64,000 nucleotides of DNA, taken from assembly GCA_903851415.1 (NCBI GenBank), contig CAINOE010000049.1, forward strand, positions 1-64,000, given 5' to 3'. A model generated the notes under the pieces. That model did no database searches, was not told the origin of the DNA, and worked only from the letters and a program-made list of their open reading frames with translations. Below, piece after piece: positions 15,530 through 29,525 of the stretch. Both the position numbers and the translations under genes were made by a program. How positions within the stretch are numbered: position 1 is the first letter of the stretch; each line of letters starts with the position of its first letter. The DNA is from an uncultured Rhodopila sp. (GTDB lineage Bacteria > Pseudomonadota > Alphaproteobacteria > Acetobacterales > Acetobacteraceae).

Positions 15530-15614
15530 GTCATGCCGACGAAGGTCGGCATCCACGCCTTTCGCCCCGTTGCGACCGCAAGGCGTGGATGGCCCGCCTT
15601 CGCGGACCATGACG
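15530..15614. repeat. palindromic intergenic repeat, copy D
   Basis: Starts GTCATGCCGACGAAGGTCGG, carries CACGCCTT / AAGGCGTG and ends CTTCGCGGACCATGACGG. It lies between hcrB and the tandem GNAT gene. A long frame through it (beginning MPTKVGIHAF) is an artefact of the repeat. Confidence 0.88.
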
Positions 15615-15664
15615 GTGTCAGCACGATCGGGCCCGCACACATCATCAACGGGAATCTTCCAACC

Positions 15665-16633
15665 ATGACCAACACCACAACCGCCCTATCCCGCGCCGAT
15701 CGGCTGATCGTGCGCCGGCTTGAACGCAACGACCTGGAGGCGGTGGTGGCTGTTGACCAGGCCCTGTCCGGGCGCAGCCGGCGCGACTTCCTGACGCGGC
15801 GGCTGGACCACGCCGCCCGCGAGCCGAACGCCTTCGCCGCCCTGGTGGCCGAACACGAAGGCCGCTTCGCCGGCTTCGTCCTCGCCCGCATCGAGGAGGG
15901 GGAATTCGGCGCCTCGGCCCCGCAGGCCTCGCTGGACGCCATCGGAGTCGATCCGGCACTGGTCGGGCGGCACGGCGTCGGCAGCGAGCTGCTCGACCAC
16001 CTCGCCGCGGCGTTGCGGGCCCGCGGCATCGGCGAACTCGCCACCCAGGTCGATTGGACCGATCACCGGCTGATCGGCTTTTTCTCCCGCGCCGGCTTCG
16101 TGCTGGCGCCGCGCATCGTGCTGGAACGCGCCACCGCGGAGCTGCTGCCGGCACTGGCGCGGCTGGCGGGCGAGGAGGACGAGGCGGCGGAGGCGGCGGT
16201 GCGGGTGCGCTCCATGGCACGCGACGACCTGGCCGCTCTGGTCGCGATCGATCGTCGCATCACCGGGCAGGACCGGTCCGGCTATTACGGCCGCAAGCTG
16301 GAGGAAGTGTTCAGCGAATCCGCGATCCGGATGTCGCTGGTGGCGGAGATCGACAGCCATCCCGCCGGGTTCATCATGGCGCGGGTGGATTTCGGCGAAT
16401 TCGGGCACACCGATCCGGAGGCGGTGATGGACACCATCGGCGTCGATCCTCGGCACGCGCATGAGGGCGTCGCGACGGCGCTGCTGCGGCAGCTTGCCGC
16501 AAATCTAGGCGCGCTGCGGGCGGAATCGCTGCGCACTGAGGTGGGCTGGAACCGCTTCGGGCTGCTGGCCTTCCTCGATCGGATGGGGTTCCAGCCGCAC
16601 CGGCGGCTTGCCCTGCGGCTCGGGCTGGAGTGA
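15665..16633 (+). CDS. tandem-domain GNAT acetyltransferase
   Basis: 322 residues with two GNAT domains. The first (about 12-150) has IGVDPALVGRHGVGSELLDH as its acetyl-CoA motif, and the second (about 175-322) has IGVDPRHAHEGVATALLRQL. Each is introduced by R-x-L/M-x-R-x-D-L and followed by a short F-x-R-x-G-F strand. The ATG at 15665 was chosen because the longer upstream frame is repeat sequence. It follows hcrB in the same direction and may belong to the aromatic operon. By analogy with R. palustris, where aryl-CoA ligases are switched off by lysine acetylation, a role in acetylating the ligase at 10022 or a small aromatic is possible. That is inference. Confidence 0.8.
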   Translation: MTNTTTALSRADRLIVRRLERNDLEAVVAVDQALSGRSRRDFLTRRLDHAAREPNAFAALVAEHEGRFAGFVLARIEEGEFGASAPQASLDAIGVDPALVGRHGVGSELLDHLAAALRARGIGELATQVDWTDHRLIGFFSRAGFVLAPRIVLERATAELLPALARLAGEEDEAAEAAVRVRSMARDDLAALVAIDRRITGQDRSGYYGRKLEEVFSESAIRMSLVAEIDSHPAGFIMARVDFGEFGHTDPEAVMDTIGVDPRHAHEGVATALLRQLAANLGALRAESLRTEVGWNRFGLLAFLDRMGFQPHRRLALRLGLE

Positions 16634-19674: not shown

Positions 19675-19983
19675 TCAACAGACCACCACCTTGTCGCGCT
19701 CGATAATCCGTTTGAACGACTCGCTGGTCGCCGCCCAATCCACCACGTCCACCCGCCAGGGCAGGTCGGAGTCGGAAAAATCCTCCGCCAGGGCTGCCAG
19801 GATGTCCGGAGGCAGGGGTTTGTCCGAAATCACCGCCAGATCGAGGTCGGAATACGGCTTTGTCGTCCCCTTCACCCGGGAACCGAACGCCCAAACCTCG
19901 TGACCGGGCACGCGCTTGCGCAGGATATCCCGGACGATGAGCCAAAGATCCGGCCGGATATCGATTGGCGGCCGATCATCCAT
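19675..19983 (-). CDS. mntA: MntA-type nucleotidyltransferase antitoxin
   Basis: 102 residues of the minimal nucleotidyltransferase family. The motif is FGSRVKGTTKPYSDLDLAV, with the metal-binding aspartates at 46 and 48 and a third at about 79 (WRVDVVDW). In characterised pairs this enzyme transfers AMP to a tyrosine of the HEPN toxin and so silences it. It overlaps the HepT gene upstream by eight bases, the usual type VII toxin-antitoxin arrangement with toxin first. Confidence 0.88.
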   Translation of the reverse strand: MDDRPPIDIRPDLWLIVRDILRKRVPGHEVWAFGSRVKGTTKPYSDLDLAVISDKPLPPDILAALAEDFSDSDLPWRVDVVDWAATSESFKRIIERDKVVVC

Positions 19984-20410
19984 TGCGCGCCTCGAGGGCG
20001 GCGAGCAGAGCTCGGGCGTCGCCGATGAATGCCGGGGTATCGCGGTAGATTGCCATGGCTTTTTCGCGATCGTAGGTATGCGAGGTCAGAGTGCGCATCC
20101 TGCGGTATCTGAACCAGGCCTCGACATCGGCGATCAGGCCCTTTTCCCCGGCGATTCGCAGCAGGTCTTTGAAACTGGCCGCGTCGATTTCCGCCGGACT
20201 GCTGGAATCCATCTCGATCCGGCGCCTGAGCATTTTGATGCTGAGTTCGTAGACGAACTCGAAATTCTGCACCACTCCGGCAATCAACGTGTTCTGGAGA
20301 TTTGCCGGTTGCCGATCAAACCAGGCGCTGGCGCTGACGATTTCAATGGCGCCTTCCAGCGAGGCGAGCGCTTTGCACAAGGAACCGAGATCGAGAACCG
20401 GCTCGTTCAT
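19976..20410 (-). CDS. hepT: HepT-type HEPN toxin
   Basis: 144 residues of the HI0074/HepT family, an all-helical HEPN ribonuclease. The catalytic motif R-x4-H-x-Y is present as RTLTSHTY (Arg106, His111, Tyr113), and the tyrosine is the position that MntA AMPylates in studied systems. The gene is first in a two-gene unit with mntA, overlapping it by eight bases. Both members appear complete, so the pair is probably functional in plasmid/phage or stress control. Confidence 0.88.
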   Translation of the reverse strand: MNEPVLDLGSLCKALASLEGAIEIVSASAWFDRQPANLQNTLIAGVVQNFEFVYELSIKMLRRRIEMDSSSPAEIDAASFKDLLRIAGEKGLIADVEAWFRYRRMRTLTSHTYDREKAMAIYRDTPAFIGDARALLAALEARNG

Positions 20411-20761: not shown

Positions 20762-21028
20762 TCAGCCGGGGATCGCCGGACCGTATTCCACGGCGAGACC
20801 AGGAGGACCAACAGGAATGGGCTGGACGCCATACAGGGGTTCGGGGTGCCCGCCATGTCGGGGCGGGGGCGGGGGCGGGGGCGGGACGCGGACGCCATAC
20901 AGGGGCGTGACTTCGAGGCCCCCTGCCACGGCCGCGATCTCGGAGTCCGTCAAGGTCGGCAGGGCCGCTGAACCGCTGGCGATGGTGGCCCACCGCAGCA
21001 GAAAGTCTCGTTTGCTGTCAGGTCTCAT
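20762..21028 (-). CDS. RiPP-like precursor peptide with PLYGV repeats
   Basis: 88 residues, ATG at 21028 with a GGAG site eight bases before it; it starts five bases after the stop of the radical SAM gene. The N-terminal leader ends with LTDSEIAAVAGG, which resembles the double-glycine leader ends of many ribosomally made peptides. The 51-residue core is poor in charged residues and holds TPLYGVRVP, a run of eight prolines, EPLYGVQPIP and VEYGPAIPG: two exact PLYGV units and a related EYGP. There is no cysteine, so any modification would be on Tyr, Val, Pro or other carbon positions. The adjacent radical SAM/SPASM enzyme is the probable maturase. The run of prolines is encoded by a tandem six-base repeat. 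Confidence 0.75.
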   Translation of the reverse strand: MRPDSKRDFLLRWATIASGSAALPTLTDSEIAAVAGGLEVTPLYGVRVPPPPPPPPRHGGHPEPLYGVQPIPVGPPGLAVEYGPAIPG

Positions 21029-21033
21029 GCGAT

Positions 21034-22131
21034 TTACTCCCATAGTTCGCCGATTTTCCGCAGGCTGCACGTCTCCACGCCGCTGTCGGCGGGATCGAAC
21101 AGATGGCAACCGCCGCCCTCGCACAGGTCCCAGTGGGCGCAGGCCCGGCATTGCGGCGCCGCCACGGCGTCGCGCTGGCGGAACGGCGTGAAGGCGTTGT
21201 TCCAGATGTCGAGGAAAGGTGTTTCGCGAATGTTGCCCTGCACGAACTTCCGGGAAACGCTGGGACAGCCGATCACCTGGCCGTCGTACAGGATGGAGCC
21301 GATGTTCACGCCGGAGCCGCAATAATGGAAATCCTGGCGGATGCGGCACTCCCAGTTCGGCCCCCAATAGCCTTCCTCCGACATCGTCACGTCGATGTCG
21401 GTGCGGCTGGCGCGCTGCGCGGCGATGAAGGCCAGCAGTTGCCGCGTCTGCTCGCCCGACAGCATCAGCCCGGACGCCGCGTCGGCGCGCCCGCGCGAGA
21501 ACACCGGCGTGAGCCGCACCCGCGGCACGCCGAGCGCCGCCAGGTAGTCCACGAAAGGCTCCAGGTGGTCGATGTTGAGCCGGCTGACGCAGCAGATCAC
21601 GTCGAACGTTCGCCAGAACGGATCTGCGACCAGCCGGCGCAGGGCGTCGCTGACCCGCAGGAAGGACCCCGGGCGGCGGCGCAGCGCATCGTGCTGCTCG
21701 GCCATGCCGTCGAGGCTGACCGCGATGGCCTTGAGGCCGGAGGCCTTGAGCGACGCCAGCCGCTTCTGATCCAGCAACATGGCGTTGGTGGTGATGCCCC
21801 AGGTGTAGCCGAGCGAAGCGGCGTATGCTCCCACCGCATCGATATCCCGCCGCACCAGGGGCTCGCCGCCGATGATGGCGAAGGTGATGCGCGCCGGATC
21901 GCATTGCCTGGTGATCGCATCCAGTTCCGCGCAGACGATCTCGGGCGCCAGTTCGCGCGCCGCGGTGGAGTCGTCACGCAGACAGTCGCTGCCGCAGTGC
22001 TGGCAGAACAGGTTGCAGCGCAGCGTCGATTCCCAGAACAGGTAAGTCAGCGGATGCTCGGCCCGCTGGCGCTGCTTCCAGGCGATCACGGATTCCAGGG
22101 CATCCGCCCAGGCGTTGACGCTGTCTGACAT
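21034..22131 (-). CDS. radical SAM/SPASM peptide maturase
   Basis: 365 residues. The radical SAM cluster is bound by Cys39, Cys43 and Cys46 (CNLFCQHC), followed by the GGEP motif at 88-91 and the TIM-barrel half (ITTNAMLLDQKRL, AVSLDG). The C-terminal SPASM domain has cysteines at 271, 289, 328, 331, 337, 342 and 355 (for example CRACAHWDLC), enough for two auxiliary [4Fe-4S] clusters. Enzymes of this kind cross-link or epimerise residues in small precursor peptides. The gene immediately downstream encodes a leader-core peptide with PLYGV repeats. No protease, transporter or recognition protein was seen nearby. The exact rSAM subfamily is not identified. Confidence 0.9.
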   Translation of the reverse strand: MSDSVNAWADALESVIAWKQRQRAEHPLTYLFWESTLRCNLFCQHCGSDCLRDDSTAARELAPEIVCAELDAITRQCDPARITFAIIGGEPLVRRDIDAVGAYAASLGYTWGITTNAMLLDQKRLASLKASGLKAIAVSLDGMAEQHDALRRRPGSFLRVSDALRRLVADPFWRTFDVICCVSRLNIDHLEPFVDYLAALGVPRVRLTPVFSRGRADAASGLMLSGEQTRQLLAFIAAQRASRTDIDVTMSEEGYWGPNWECRIRQDFHYCGSGVNIGSILYDGQVIGCPSVSRKFVQGNIRETPFLDIWNNAFTPFRQRDAVAAPQCRACAHWDLCEGGGCHLFDPADSGVETCSLRKIGELWE

Positions 22132-26561: not shown

Positions 26562-27047
26562 ATGTTTGGTCATCAACGCCCCGGTTCCGCGGGACCGTCC
26601 GGCCGCGCGGGCCGGCGCCCGCTTTTCATGATCGCCGCAGTGCTGCTCATGAGCTTCCCGGCGGCCCGGGCCGCCCTGGCAACCGATCAGTTGTACATAA
26701 TGCAATCGCCCAATTTCGGCGGCGTCAACGCGTCGTCACTGTCCGCCGCGCAAACCGCGGTGTCCATGGTCAAGCAACAGGAGGCCGCCGCCGCCGCCGC
26801 GACCGCCGCCGCCAGCGCAGCGGCGAACAGCCCGAGCCAGCAATTCGCCAACTCGATCATTTCGCAACTGGATGCCATGGTCGCGCGCAACATCGCCGCG
26901 CAGATCGCCGGCGCCCTGCCGGGGCAGGGCGGCACCATCCAGTCCGGCAGCACCTCCATCTCCTATACCAACGTGGACGGCACGCTCAACGTTTCGATCA
27001 CCACGCCGACGGGAACCACGACCCTGGCCATGCCGTCGGGCAACTAG
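26562..27047 (+). CDS. csgF: curli assembly protein CsgF-like
   Basis: 161 residues. ATG at 26562 has an AAGGA site. The N-terminal signal region is long and Arg-rich before the hydrophobic core (LFMIAAVLLMSFP), with a cut near ARAALA. The mature start TDQLYIMQSPNFGGVNASSL contains the N/S-P-N-F-G-G motif that in CsgF inserts into the CsgG pore and caps its constriction. The rest is Ala/Gln-rich helix and a C-terminal beta segment. It is followed by csgG with a four-base gap, confirming the assignment. Confidence 0.85.
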   Translation: MFGHQRPGSAGPSGRAGRRPLFMIAAVLLMSFPAARAALATDQLYIMQSPNFGGVNASSLSAAQTAVSMVKQQEAAAAAATAAASAAANSPSQQFANSIISQLDAMVARNIAAQIAGALPGQGGTIQSGSTSISYTNVDGTLNVSITTPTGTTTLAMPSGN

Positions 27048-27051
27048 CCCA

Positions 27052-27849
27052 ATGTCCAGGTCGCGCCTCCACACCCGCGGCATTTCAAGGATCGTGGCAA
27101 CCGTGCTGCTGCTGGCGGGCTGCGTGCAAGACCCGCTGCCGTCGCCCACGCCGCAAGTCATGGATGAAGACGAAATCCCGCTACCGCCGAAGCCGAAGCA
27201 CAGCCTCACGGTGGGCGTCTACAATTGCATCGACACCACCGGGCAGAAGCGGCCGACAGGAACCTATCAGGAGCTCAGCAGCGCGGTGCCGCTGGATTGC
27301 ACGCCCTACCTGATCGAGGCGGTTCGCGCGCTGACGCCGGGCTATATCTTCCTGGTCGAACGCCAGCACGTGGACGAGTTGTTGCGGGAGCGGCAGCTCG
27401 CCACACTGGCCCTGAACAGCGCCGCCGAGGCGCAGACAACCGACCCGGCGCACCCCGCGGCGCATCGCCGGCTGGCGACGCTGCGGGTGGCCGAACTGCT
27501 GCTGATTGGCCAGGTCGTCGCCTATGACCGGGAAACCCGGCAGATCACCGGCGGTCTCGCCATCGGCGGCAGCAACGGCACCGGCAGCGTGATCACCGAC
27601 GTGTTCACCTTCAGCCTGCGCGCCGTCGCGGTGCAGACCGGTGAAGTCCTCGGCCAGACCACGGTCACCAAGTCGGTCACCTCGGTGAAGATCGGCGGGC
27701 AAACAACACAGATTCTCCCTGTCACGGTGCTGAACATTGAAGCCGGCATCGGCGGCAACGAGGCGGTTGGCCTGGCGCTGCGCGTCGCGGTGCGCAGCGC
27801 GCTCGGCCGGCTGATCAACCAGGGAGTTCAAGATGGCTGGTGGTCTTGA
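27052..27849 (+). CDS. csgG: curli secretion channel CsgG-like lipoprotein
   Basis: 265 residues from ATG at 27052. A lipoprotein signal peptide ends in LLLAGC with Cys24 as the lipidated residue. The mature protein keeps the CsgG core: VGVYNCIDTTGQKRP, ALTPGYIFLVERQHVDELLR, VAELLLIGQVVAYDRETRQ, GGLAIGGSNGTGSVITD and VRSALGRLI near the end. In known systems nine copies form an outer-membrane channel that exports unfolded curlin subunits. It lies between csgF and the curlin-like gene in one unit. Confidence 0.9.
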   Translation: MSRSRLHTRGISRIVATVLLLAGCVQDPLPSPTPQVMDEDEIPLPPKPKHSLTVGVYNCIDTTGQKRPTGTYQELSSAVPLDCTPYLIEAVRALTPGYIFLVERQHVDELLRERQLATLALNSAAEAQTTDPAHPAAHRRLATLRVAELLLIGQVVAYDRETRQITGGLAIGGSNGTGSVITDVFTFSLRAVAVQTGEVLGQTTVTKSVTSVKIGGQTTQILPVTVLNIEAGIGGNEAVGLALRVAVRSALGRLINQGVQDGWWS

Positions 27850-27896: not shown

Positions 27897-28976
27897 ATGA
27901 AACGGGTTCTTACGGCAACAACGATCCTGGCAGCCCTTGGCAGCCCGGCTTTCGCGGCCAGCTTCAACGACATCAACATTGATGCCACCGGCACAGCCGG
28001 CAACACCGGATCGGTGACGTCGCTGGCGATCCTGCAGGACACCACCGGCACCACCGCCGCCACTGGGACAGGCACCACGGTCAACAACCTCGTGAGCGGT
28101 GAAACCACCGCGGGCCACGCCGACAAAACCCAGGCGCTGGCGGTGCGGGGCGCCTGGAAAAGCATCTCCATAACGCAGAACGGCGCCAACAACAGCTTCT
28201 CCGGCAGCCTCAAGACGGCGGCTGGCTCAACCAACGCTACGCTGGCAGCCACCTATACCGGCGGCGGCAACGTCCATTCGTTGAACGTCGGCGCCGCGGC
28301 GGCACCGCTCGATCCGACGATCACTGTCAGCGTCAACGGCGCCAGCAACAAAATCACTGACACCCTCGACACGGGCAGCACTGCTGACTCGACGTATACC
28401 GGCGGAGCCCTGACCTATGCCCTGGCGATCACCGGCGCCTCCAATATCCTGGTGAACAGCCTCGCTACAAAAACCGGCATCACGCTGAATGAGACCATCA
28501 ACGGCAGCAGCAACACCGTCACCAACGCCACCACCAGCGGGTCGGCCGTCACTACCGCGACGATCAACCAGACCATCAACGGCAGCAACGGCACATACGT
28601 GACCGACTACACCGCCGGCGCCGGCGGCACGCAAACCTCGACCCTGAATGTCGATGCCACCTCAGTCGCCAACTACCTTGCCAGCTCCGACGGCCTCAAC
28701 CAAACCACCAACGTCACCCTGAACGGCTTTCACGCCACCGGTGGAACCATGGCGGATGTCGTGATCTTGCAGACCAGCAACGCTGGTGGTGCGTCCGCAA
28801 CCGTGACCTACAATGGCAACGGCAACAACGCAGGCCAGCTGGGTTTAATTGGTGGCACCGGGCCGGCGGCTGCCTATAATCCGGCTGTCTATGTCCTTCA
28901 GAGCAGCCCTGGTGCCCAGCTGAGCGCAAACGTCAGTGCGTCGGGACCGAACTACACTGCCTCTTTCATACACTAG
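27897..28976 (+). CDS. curlin-like repeat protein (functional amyloid candidate)
   Basis: 359 residues. The signal peptide MKRVLTATTILAALGSPAFA is followed by a Thr/Asn/Gly/Ala-rich mature protein with no cysteine. At least six repeats of the form hydrophobic-x-(N/T)-G-x-x-N occur at irregular distances: SITQNGANNSF (91-101), TVSVNGASNKI (143-153), ALAITGASNIL (175-185), LNETINGSSNTV (197-208), INQTINGSNGTY (223-234) and VTYNGNGNNAG (303-313). The first fits the curlin signature S-x5-Q-x-G-x2-N. This is much longer and less regular than CsgA (about 130 residues mature). It follows csgG by 47 bases and is the probable export substrate. Export and amyloid formation are inferred. Confidence 0.78.
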   Translation: MKRVLTATTILAALGSPAFAASFNDINIDATGTAGNTGSVTSLAILQDTTGTTAATGTGTTVNNLVSGETTAGHADKTQALAVRGAWKSISITQNGANNSFSGSLKTAAGSTNATLAATYTGGGNVHSLNVGAAAAPLDPTITVSVNGASNKITDTLDTGSTADSTYTGGALTYALAITGASNILVNSLATKTGITLNETINGSSNTVTNATTSGSAVTTATINQTINGSNGTYVTDYTAGAGGTQTSTLNVDATSVANYLASSDGLNQTTNVTLNGFHATGGTMADVVILQTSNAGGASATVTYNGNGNNAGQLGLIGGTGPAAAYNPAVYVLQSSPGAQLSANVSASGPNYTASFIH

Positions 28977-29066
28977 TCTGAACCTGACGTCTCAGAACCG
29001 ATGTGGGCCGGGCAACCGGCCCATGTCCGGTGTTGCGCGTCACGCCTCATTACCAAGGTATCGTCC

Positions 29067-29525
29067 ATGCCGAACCCTCCGTCCCGACGAAGCGTCCCAT
29101 GGCGGCGACCGGCTGCAGGCGCGGCGGCGGCGACCCTGTCGCTGGCCATGGCGTCCGCGCCCGCCGCCGCCAACCAGTTCCTGGTCTGCCGCGCCATGGA
29201 CATGGCCTCCCCGCTGATGAGCCCCCTGCTGGTCCCGGCCAGCTCACTGTTCCGCGACAACGGGCGGGCGGACGATCCGCTGGCCTCGTTCGGCAACGAC
29301 CGCTGGCAACTTCGGGTGGAGACTCTCGCTGCCGCAACGATTAAGCCGCTCGACTCATGCGTTCTGGTGCGGGTGCATATCGTCAGCGACTCGGCGGTCA
29401 AGTCCGTCACGAACGCCGACAATCGGACCTTTGTCTATGCCGGCAACTACCAGCTCCTTGATCGGCCGGACGAATCAGAGGAATTGCTCAGCACACGCGG
29501 ACGTGTTCTGGATGATGTTCATTAG
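29067..29525 (+). CDS. secreted protein of unknown function, curli locus
   Basis: 152 residues with a twin-Arg-containing, Ala-rich signal peptide (GAAAATLSLAMASAPAAANQ). The mature part has two cysteines (FLVCRAM and LDSCVLV) that could form a disulfide. It is the last gene in the csgF-csgG-curlin direction and starts about 90 bases after the curlin-like gene. It does not show CsgE or CsgH features that I recognise. A role as a periplasmic chaperone or nucleator is possible but only from position. Confidence 0.65.
   Translation: MPNPPSRRSVPWRRPAAGAAAATLSLAMASAPAAANQFLVCRAMDMASPLMSPLLVPASSLFRDNGRADDPLASFGNDRWQLRVETLAAATIKPLDSCVLVRVHIVSDSAVKSVTNADNRTFVYAGNYQLLDRPDESEELLSTRGRVLDDVH

Follow-up and report, generated by a model that had tools for sequence, protein, structure and literature searches.

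The radical SAM/SPASM enzyme PlpX acts together with PlpY on precursors that carry several X-Tyr-Gly sites, LYG among them. In Pleurocapsa, PlpXY convert residue X of such a site into an alpha-keto-beta-amino acid with the loss of C8H9NO (PMC10533398, PMC11002830), and the plp precursors are described as having leaders that resemble nif11 or nitrile hydratase (PMC11002830). The splice tags tested follow the pattern PIRP[L/G]YGLPI and, when tags were inserted into FtsZ, two with LYG were not accepted and two with GYG were (PMC10533398). Protease inhibition by spliced peptides is reported in reviews (PMC10373908, PMC11002830). A second group is formed by the enzyme-lipoprotein pairs of Bacteroidota and Treponema that correspond to the NCBIfam models TIGR04133 ("rSAM_w_lipo") and TIGR04134 ("radical SAM-associated putative lipoprotein"). 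These pairs are already named but unexplained, and no publication naming either model or its family name was found in the literature searched, which did not include the 2022 splicease survey. Further points of comparison are the mycofactocin maturase MftC (TIGR03962), which uses the C-terminal Tyr and the adjacent Val of a small peptide (PMC8326336), and the sactipeptide and ranthipeptide maturases, which are radical SAM/SPASM enzymes encoded beside short precursors and need Cys donors.

The locus described here lies in a 64,000-nucleotide stretch of contig CAINOE010000049.1 from an uncultured Rhodopila sp. (hereafter the window, meaning the whole stretch analysed), and consists of an enzyme gene and a peptide gene (Table 1). 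It resembles PlpXY in that a SPASM radical SAM enzyme is encoded beside a precursor with several X-Tyr-Gly sites, including LYG, and the PlpXY splice tags (PMC10533398) have P-L-Y-G in common with the window's LYGV sites and YG-x-P in common with 16 of the 21 substrates collected in this work. It differs in that the enzyme falls outside the PlpX family by profile score, shows no conserved PlpY-like neighbour within 6 kb in the eleven loci compared, and has most of its relatives beside lipoprotein-like substrates; moreover, the precursor, unlike those of plp, has no Pfam match. With the TIGR04133/TIGR04134 pairs, which represent the best-scoring family over the full length of the enzyme, the locus shares an adjacent substrate containing X-Tyr-Gly, whereas in those pairs the motif stands behind a lipobox Cys and the window substrate has neither a lipobox nor a TIGR04134 match.

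Table 1 Positions of the features of the enzyme-peptide locus and of other features noted in the window and in compared loci
Feature	Position	Strand	Basis or remark
Radical SAM/SPASM enzyme, 365 aa, TIGR04133-like	window 21034..22131	-	ORF, profile matches, alignment
Precursor peptide, 88 aa	window 20762..21028	-	ORF; GGGAG upstream of start; like arrangement in G143
DSKRDFLLRWA, residues 4-14	window 20987..21019	-	Proposed enzyme-recognition segment; alignment, putative function
Leader end LTDSEIAAVAGG, residues 26-37, GG-type	window 20918..20953	-	Possible C39-peptidase cleavage site; predicted cleavage
First PLYGV unit (Y44)	window 20891..20905	-	Alignment
Second PLYGV unit (Y66)	window 20825..20839	-	Alignment
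Third X-Tyr-Gly unit, EYGP (Y82)	window 20777..20788	-	Alignment
HEPN/MNT-like pair adjoining the peptide gene	window 19675-20410	-	Nucleotidyltransferase PF01909 and HI0074-family PF08780; MntA antitoxin model below cut-off
Apparent tandem GNAT acetyltransferase domains (two)	window 15533-16633	+	By eye
Curli-type secretion genes	window 26562-27849	+	CsgF PF10614, 45.9 bits; CsgG PF03783, 90.6 bits
Grouped with the CsgF/CsgG genes	window 27897-28976, 29001-29525		
Four tandem lipoproteins	L004 2288-5463		Two of the four hold two X-Tyr-Gly sites each
Lipoprotein of Treponema saccharophilum	L023 4589-4978		Lipobox Cys itself is X (TSC-YGMP)
Radical SAM enzyme of genome G863	L048 11407-12903		TIGR04103, 435 bits; small upstream protein with PLYAV

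The enzyme and its family

The enzyme carries a CX3CX2C motif at residues 39/43/46 and matches the Pfam families Radical_SAM (PF04055, 59.0 bits) and SPASM (PF13186, 38.7 bits), both above cut-off. The radical SAM cysteines C39, C43 and C46, as well as C271, C289, C328, C331, C337 and C355 in the SPASM region, are invariant among the 14 aligned relatives. The top NCBIfam model is TIGR04133, with 320.4 bits over 349 residues against a curated cut-off of 425, and by this curated rule the enzyme is related to the family and not a member of it. The same applies to the scores of the relatives at L001 (300.2) and L004 (308.8), while the enzymes of Phocaeicola (617.5) and Treponema (451.4) lie above the cut-off. 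The model in second place is the mycofactocin maturase TIGR03962; MftC also acts on a Tyr of a small peptide, but the score of 105 bits is far below the cut-off of 265. TIGR04103, the nif11-class maturase model that we take to be of the PlpX type, is ninth in the list with 93.3 bits against a cut-off of 725, a score that rules out membership of the PlpX family. PlpX-type comparators were sought in 299 genomes, which gave a single match, in G863, itself below this cut-off (Table 1); no X-Tyr-Gly precursor was seen among its listed neighbours.

A first structure model of the enzyme was poor (mean pLDDT 54). A deeper alignment brought the mean to 75.7, with a good barrel and low confidence at residues 253-271 and 335-365, and no conclusion is therefore drawn on the cluster ligands. 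The enzyme model retrieved general radical SAM enzymes with Foldseek, SkfB coming first and PqqE and SuiB also being among the top matches.

The precursor peptide

The two genes are separated by five bases on the minus strand, and GGGAG is found eight bases before the start of the peptide gene. The peptide is made of MRPDSKRDFLLRWATIASGSAALPTLTDSEIAAVAGG followed by a Pro-rich core with PLYGV, PLYGV and EYGP, the last of which can be grouped, by its sequence, with the two LYGV units as an X-Tyr-Gly site. Three YG dipeptides within residues 21-88 are improbable from composition (shuffle p 0.0018). In the alignment, DSKRDFLLRWA is the counterpart of the Tat-like [ST]RRDFLLRFA segment of alphaproteobacterial relatives. 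No Pfam or NCBIfam model, TIGR04134 included, matches the peptide. The initial annotation had described a SPASM maturase and, five bases away, an 88-residue precursor of its own with a Cys-free core containing two PLYGV and one EYGP, and the ORFs and the sequence bear this out. Since the peptide contains no Cys, the thioether (sactipeptide or ranthipeptide) reading is excluded.

A similar two-gene unit is present in another genome of the same family, G143. Its enzyme is 84% identical to that of the window, and its peptide, of 82 aa, shares the N-terminal segment, has GGGAG at a similar place, and harbors two PLYGV units and no EYGP. The leader end reads AVAAG in G143 against AVAGG in the window (AAGW against AGGL), and dN/dS between the two loci is 0.20 for the enzyme and 0.29 for residues 1-46 of the peptide. 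As G143 holds the same enzyme-peptide unit, the peptide ORF of the window is a real gene. X-Tyr-Gly in the precursor, a feature of spliceotides, occurs three times in the window peptide and twice in that of G143. The HEPN/MNT-like pair next to the peptide gene was set aside as a component of the system because it is absent beside the G143 pair.

Apart from the window and G143, the pair is rare among relatives. At E 1e-30 it occurs in 2 of the 200 family genomes searched, one of them being that of the window, and draws from the order, class and phylum returned the own genome alone (1 of 299 at 1e-60, 1 of 385 and 1 of 398 at 1e-80). A search for a second copy of the peptide in its own genome gave weak matches only (E 0.027, with two stops, and 0.46), and plasmids gave none at E up to 1. 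The C39 peptidase family is matched once in the producer genome, by an ABC exporter with an HlyD-like gene alongside (by eye), which could cut and export the window peptide; it sits on another contig, unlinked to the peptide.

Relatives of the enzyme and their substrates

A search of genome contigs gave 17 matches, five of which were kept (L001-L005, 51-69% identity), the 12 others (L006-L017, 23-31% identity) being other radical SAM enzymes that were excluded from the family and used as negative controls. All three matches in plasmid records were kept (L022-L024, from Parabacteroides, Treponema and Phocaeicola, 38-39% identical to the window enzyme). Of 55 genomes from the Magnetospirillum moscoviense family, nine had matches, five of them new (L043-L047), and the match found in 1 of 39 Calditrichota genomes was the locus already collected. 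No relative turned up when viral contigs were scanned with the peptide, the alignment of the enzymes and two enzymes from Bacteroidota, nor did phages yield any. Together with the window and G143, these make 15 loci.

Every one of the 15 loci encodes, next to the enzyme, a protein whose first part contains X-Tyr-Gly, and in the ten loci measured the first substrate starts between -20 and +5 bases from the enzyme stop. The adjacent protein has a lipobox-like Cys at 11 of the 15 loci, and in the motif region the Tyr follows this Cys at a distance of 1-22 residues; the Cys is lacking in the window, G143, L043 and L047. At L001-L003, L005 and L043-L046, the substrate combines the Tat-like [ST]RRDFLLRFA segment with a site of the kind VVYGPPP and with an OmpA domain, which was present in all eight scanned. 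Seven of these eight loci (L001-L003, L005, L044-L046) have a lipobox-like Cys, usually as GAGC, which differs from the classical lipobox, and L043 has none. The 94-aa substrate of L047 contains the RDFLLRFA segment and lacks both a lipobox Cys and a Pfam domain. Tandem substrate paralogues, each with a site, are present as three copies in L003, four in L004 and two in L001. Those of the Calditrichota locus L004 are lipoproteins with EYGPVPAYGPTP, SLYGPPP, VYGVTPLYGP and PMYGPQ, and two of them are double-site proteins (Table 1). In Bacteroidota and Treponema, the substrate is the TIGR04134 lipoprotein (207.1 bits in L022, 43.7 in L023 and 138.8 in L024, with no match for the L004 lipoprotein), and the sites are EYGSP, CYGMP and EYGTP. 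In the Treponema saccharophilum lipoprotein, where the lipobox Cys takes the place of X, lipidation and the proposed splicing would coincide on one residue.

The X-Tyr-Gly motif

When the 21 substrates are aligned, YG forms an invariant column, while X and the residue after Gly vary. The substrates were chosen among nearby ORFs by the presence of YG (L022 and L023 are annotated neighbours and were not picked by motif), so that the selection itself accounts for part of this invariance; it does not account for the presence of a qualifying gene directly adjacent at every locus. Among 27 YG occurrences, X is V in 11, L in seven, E in four, and A, M, I, C and Y in one each, the Y case being YYGT at residue 67 of the Treponema protein, outside the motif region. 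The residue following Gly is P, V, A, S, T or M. YG-x-P accounts for 16 of the 27 occurrences, and is absent from the three window sites and the two G143 sites.

Several comparisons indicate how far such motifs are expected by chance. Any YG at residues 21-88 was found in 9 of 102 gene-like ORFs from ten stretches of the same loci; at least three of these nine are substrates, and YG[PVATSM]P occurs in these three only. Ten ORFs are lipobox-like; YG within 45 residues occurs in two of these, and just one of the two is a substrate. A mechanical scan for a same-strand ORF with YGxP within 1 kb, run on 13 of the 15 loci (the window and L046 were left out), was positive at 9 of 13 member loci against 0 of 12 non-member radical SAM loci. 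The four misses are G143 (no YGxP), L043 and L044 (where the overlap of the longest ORF with the enzyme gene exceeds the 250 bases allowed) and L022. At the 13 loci besides the window and G143, shuffle p-values for YG range from 0.07 to 0.42, none being significant singly, and because the substrates are homologous these values are not independent and their sum was not used. The pairing of enzyme and substrate is strongly supported.

The variation around the motif bears on the initial annotation, which had guessed a crosslink with a mass shift of 2 Da, or an epimerisation, at the PLYGV units. In three-residue cyclophane enzymes, the partner residue two positions on is kept and the aromatic residue is variable. 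This class does not agree with the alignment, where Tyr and Gly are fixed (Tyr partly through the selection for YG) and the position two residues after Tyr is P, V, A, T, S or M. We know of no crosslinking family that follows a rule of free X, fixed Tyr and fixed Gly. A carbon-carbon or carbon-oxygen crosslink at Tyr, as a cyclophane or an aryl ether, would be in line with the presence of the crosslink-forming SkfB, PqqE and SuiB among the nearest solved structures, and with the second-best model being a maturase that acts on Tyr and an adjacent Val (PMC8326336). However, both residues flanking the fixed Tyr-Gly vary, Pro and Cys included, and the alignment shows no constant partner residue in the neighbourhood of the site; we consider a crosslink quite unlikely. 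Fixed Tyr and Gly with varying X fit tyramine splicing better.

Phylogeny and the proposed change from lipoprotein to peptide

A tree was built from 14 enzymes, L005 being omitted from it and from the enzyme alignment because a contig end cuts its enzyme gene. The window and G143 enzymes form one clade (100/100). L047 stands next to it with 88/98, below the program's mark for strong support, and the branching of the surrounding enzymes, of the OmpA-lipoprotein type and from Calditrichota, is not settled, which leaves the place of the clade largely undecided by the tree; the program also flags long branches and uneven composition for the outgroup rows.

The window and G143 peptides keep [SA]KRxFLxRWAxIA and lack the twin Arg, the hydrophobic stretch, the lipobox and the OmpA domain. 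Their maximal 13-residue hydropathy is 1.1 and 0.25, respectively, against 1.4-2.4 in the other 19 substrates. Both have an LTDxExxAVAxG-type leader end and a second site, with a third site in the window alone. The retention of the N-terminal segment where no export signal is evident suggests that the segment may be what the enzyme recognises.

The same two peptides bear on the possibility that X-Tyr-Gly serves a structural or binding role in the lipoproteins, the enzyme acting elsewhere on them or on another target. Tyr-Gly could indeed belong to a linker, and Pro-rich linkers are common behind lipid anchors, but the short peptides preserve little of the lipoproteins other than the N-terminal segment and X-Tyr-Gly, and even have further sites, so that this explanation appears very improbable.

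A probable splicease-type reaction

Judging from the motif and by analogy with PlpXY, it is rather probable that the enzyme acts on the peptide encoded next to it through splicease-type chemistry at X-Tyr-Gly. Tyramine splicing has the best support because the rule of a free X, a fixed Tyr and a fixed Gly recurs here, as does, in the window's two LYGV sites, P-L-Y-G; this support comes from the motif, not from homology. In this reaction, a SAM-derived radical would attack the Tyr of X-Tyr-Gly, a tyramine equivalent (C8H9NO, about 135 Da per site) would be excised and the chain rejoined, and residue X would become an alpha-keto-beta-amino acid, Leu-derived at the two LYG sites and Glu-derived at EYG. 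To our knowledge, no other published reaction follows an X-Tyr-Gly rule with free X. The same enzyme and sites might nevertheless serve another change centred on Tyr or Gly, such as epimerisation, hydroxylation, loss of the Tyr side chain, Gly chemistry or cleavage of the YG backbone. The pairing in 15 of 15 loci marks a site and not a reaction, and the fixed Gly would suit Gly chemistry, yet X-Tyr-Gly with free X is the published rule of tyramine splicing (PMC10533398, PMC10373908), and we regard these other changes as unlikely.

These results modify the remaining expectations of the initial annotation. It had proposed to check that homologues of the maturase stand beside peptides with repeated x-L-Y-G-V; the motif-bearing neighbour is there in 15 of 15 loci, whereas the motif turned out to be X-Y-G (X being V, L, E, A, M, I or C) and the neighbours are mostly lipoprotein-like. 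Nor is the class of the core, given there as unrecognised, without precedent, as X-Tyr-Gly is the motif published for spliceases (PMC10533398).

A comparison of neighbouring ORFs of at least 40 aa within 6 kb at eleven loci showed no gene widely shared besides the enzyme and substrates, and no conserved PlpY-like neighbour. The window neighbours have two weak matches (27-28% identity) to ORFs of the distant L001 and L002 and none in G143, and the similar loci L044-L046 have some downstream genes in common. On sequence grounds, the whole is best read as a splicease-like family with no clustered PlpY that would act mainly on lipoproteins and, here, on a lipoprotein-derived peptide. The usual substrates of TIGR04133 enzymes and of their alphaproteobacterial and Calditrichota relatives would be exported, lipoprotein-like proteins with one or two X-Tyr-Gly sites shortly behind the lipobox Cys. 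The window product would probably be a short peptide, cut after the leader and exported, with up to three electrophilic ketoamides, since the window and G143 peptides no longer have a lipobox, a hydrophobic segment or an OmpA domain, and show a GG-type leader end and additional X-Tyr-Gly sites. Protease inhibition would be the likeliest use of such a secreted, Pro-rich ketoamide peptide.

Other features of the window

The window also contains curli-type secretion genes (Table 1). CsgF and CsgG are followed by a repeat-like protein of 359 aa that has no Pfam match and, judged by eye, may be the curlin-like subunit. A gene with two apparent acetyltransferase domains lies elsewhere in the window.

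Significance for the enzyme family

More tentatively, and with slightly less than even confidence, the TIGR04133-type enzymes may be a second splicease lineage with no clustered PlpY, whose usual task in gut Bacteroidota, spirochaetes, Calditrichota and alphaproteobacteria would be to equip envelope lipoproteins with an alpha-keto-beta-amino acid in the backbone close to the lipid anchor; the window would then be an example of such a system turned into a multi-site peptide with a GG-type leader. A path from modified protein to modified peptide is suggested, in which the lipobox and the domain were lost and a GG-type leader end and extra sites gained. If this is true, these enzymes would be candidates for installing beta-amino acids in proteins with a single enzyme. 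A function could then also be assigned to the named enzyme-lipoprotein pair TIGR04133/TIGR04134, which is present in gut genera, and the backbone of envelope lipoproteins would contain a reactive ketoamide.
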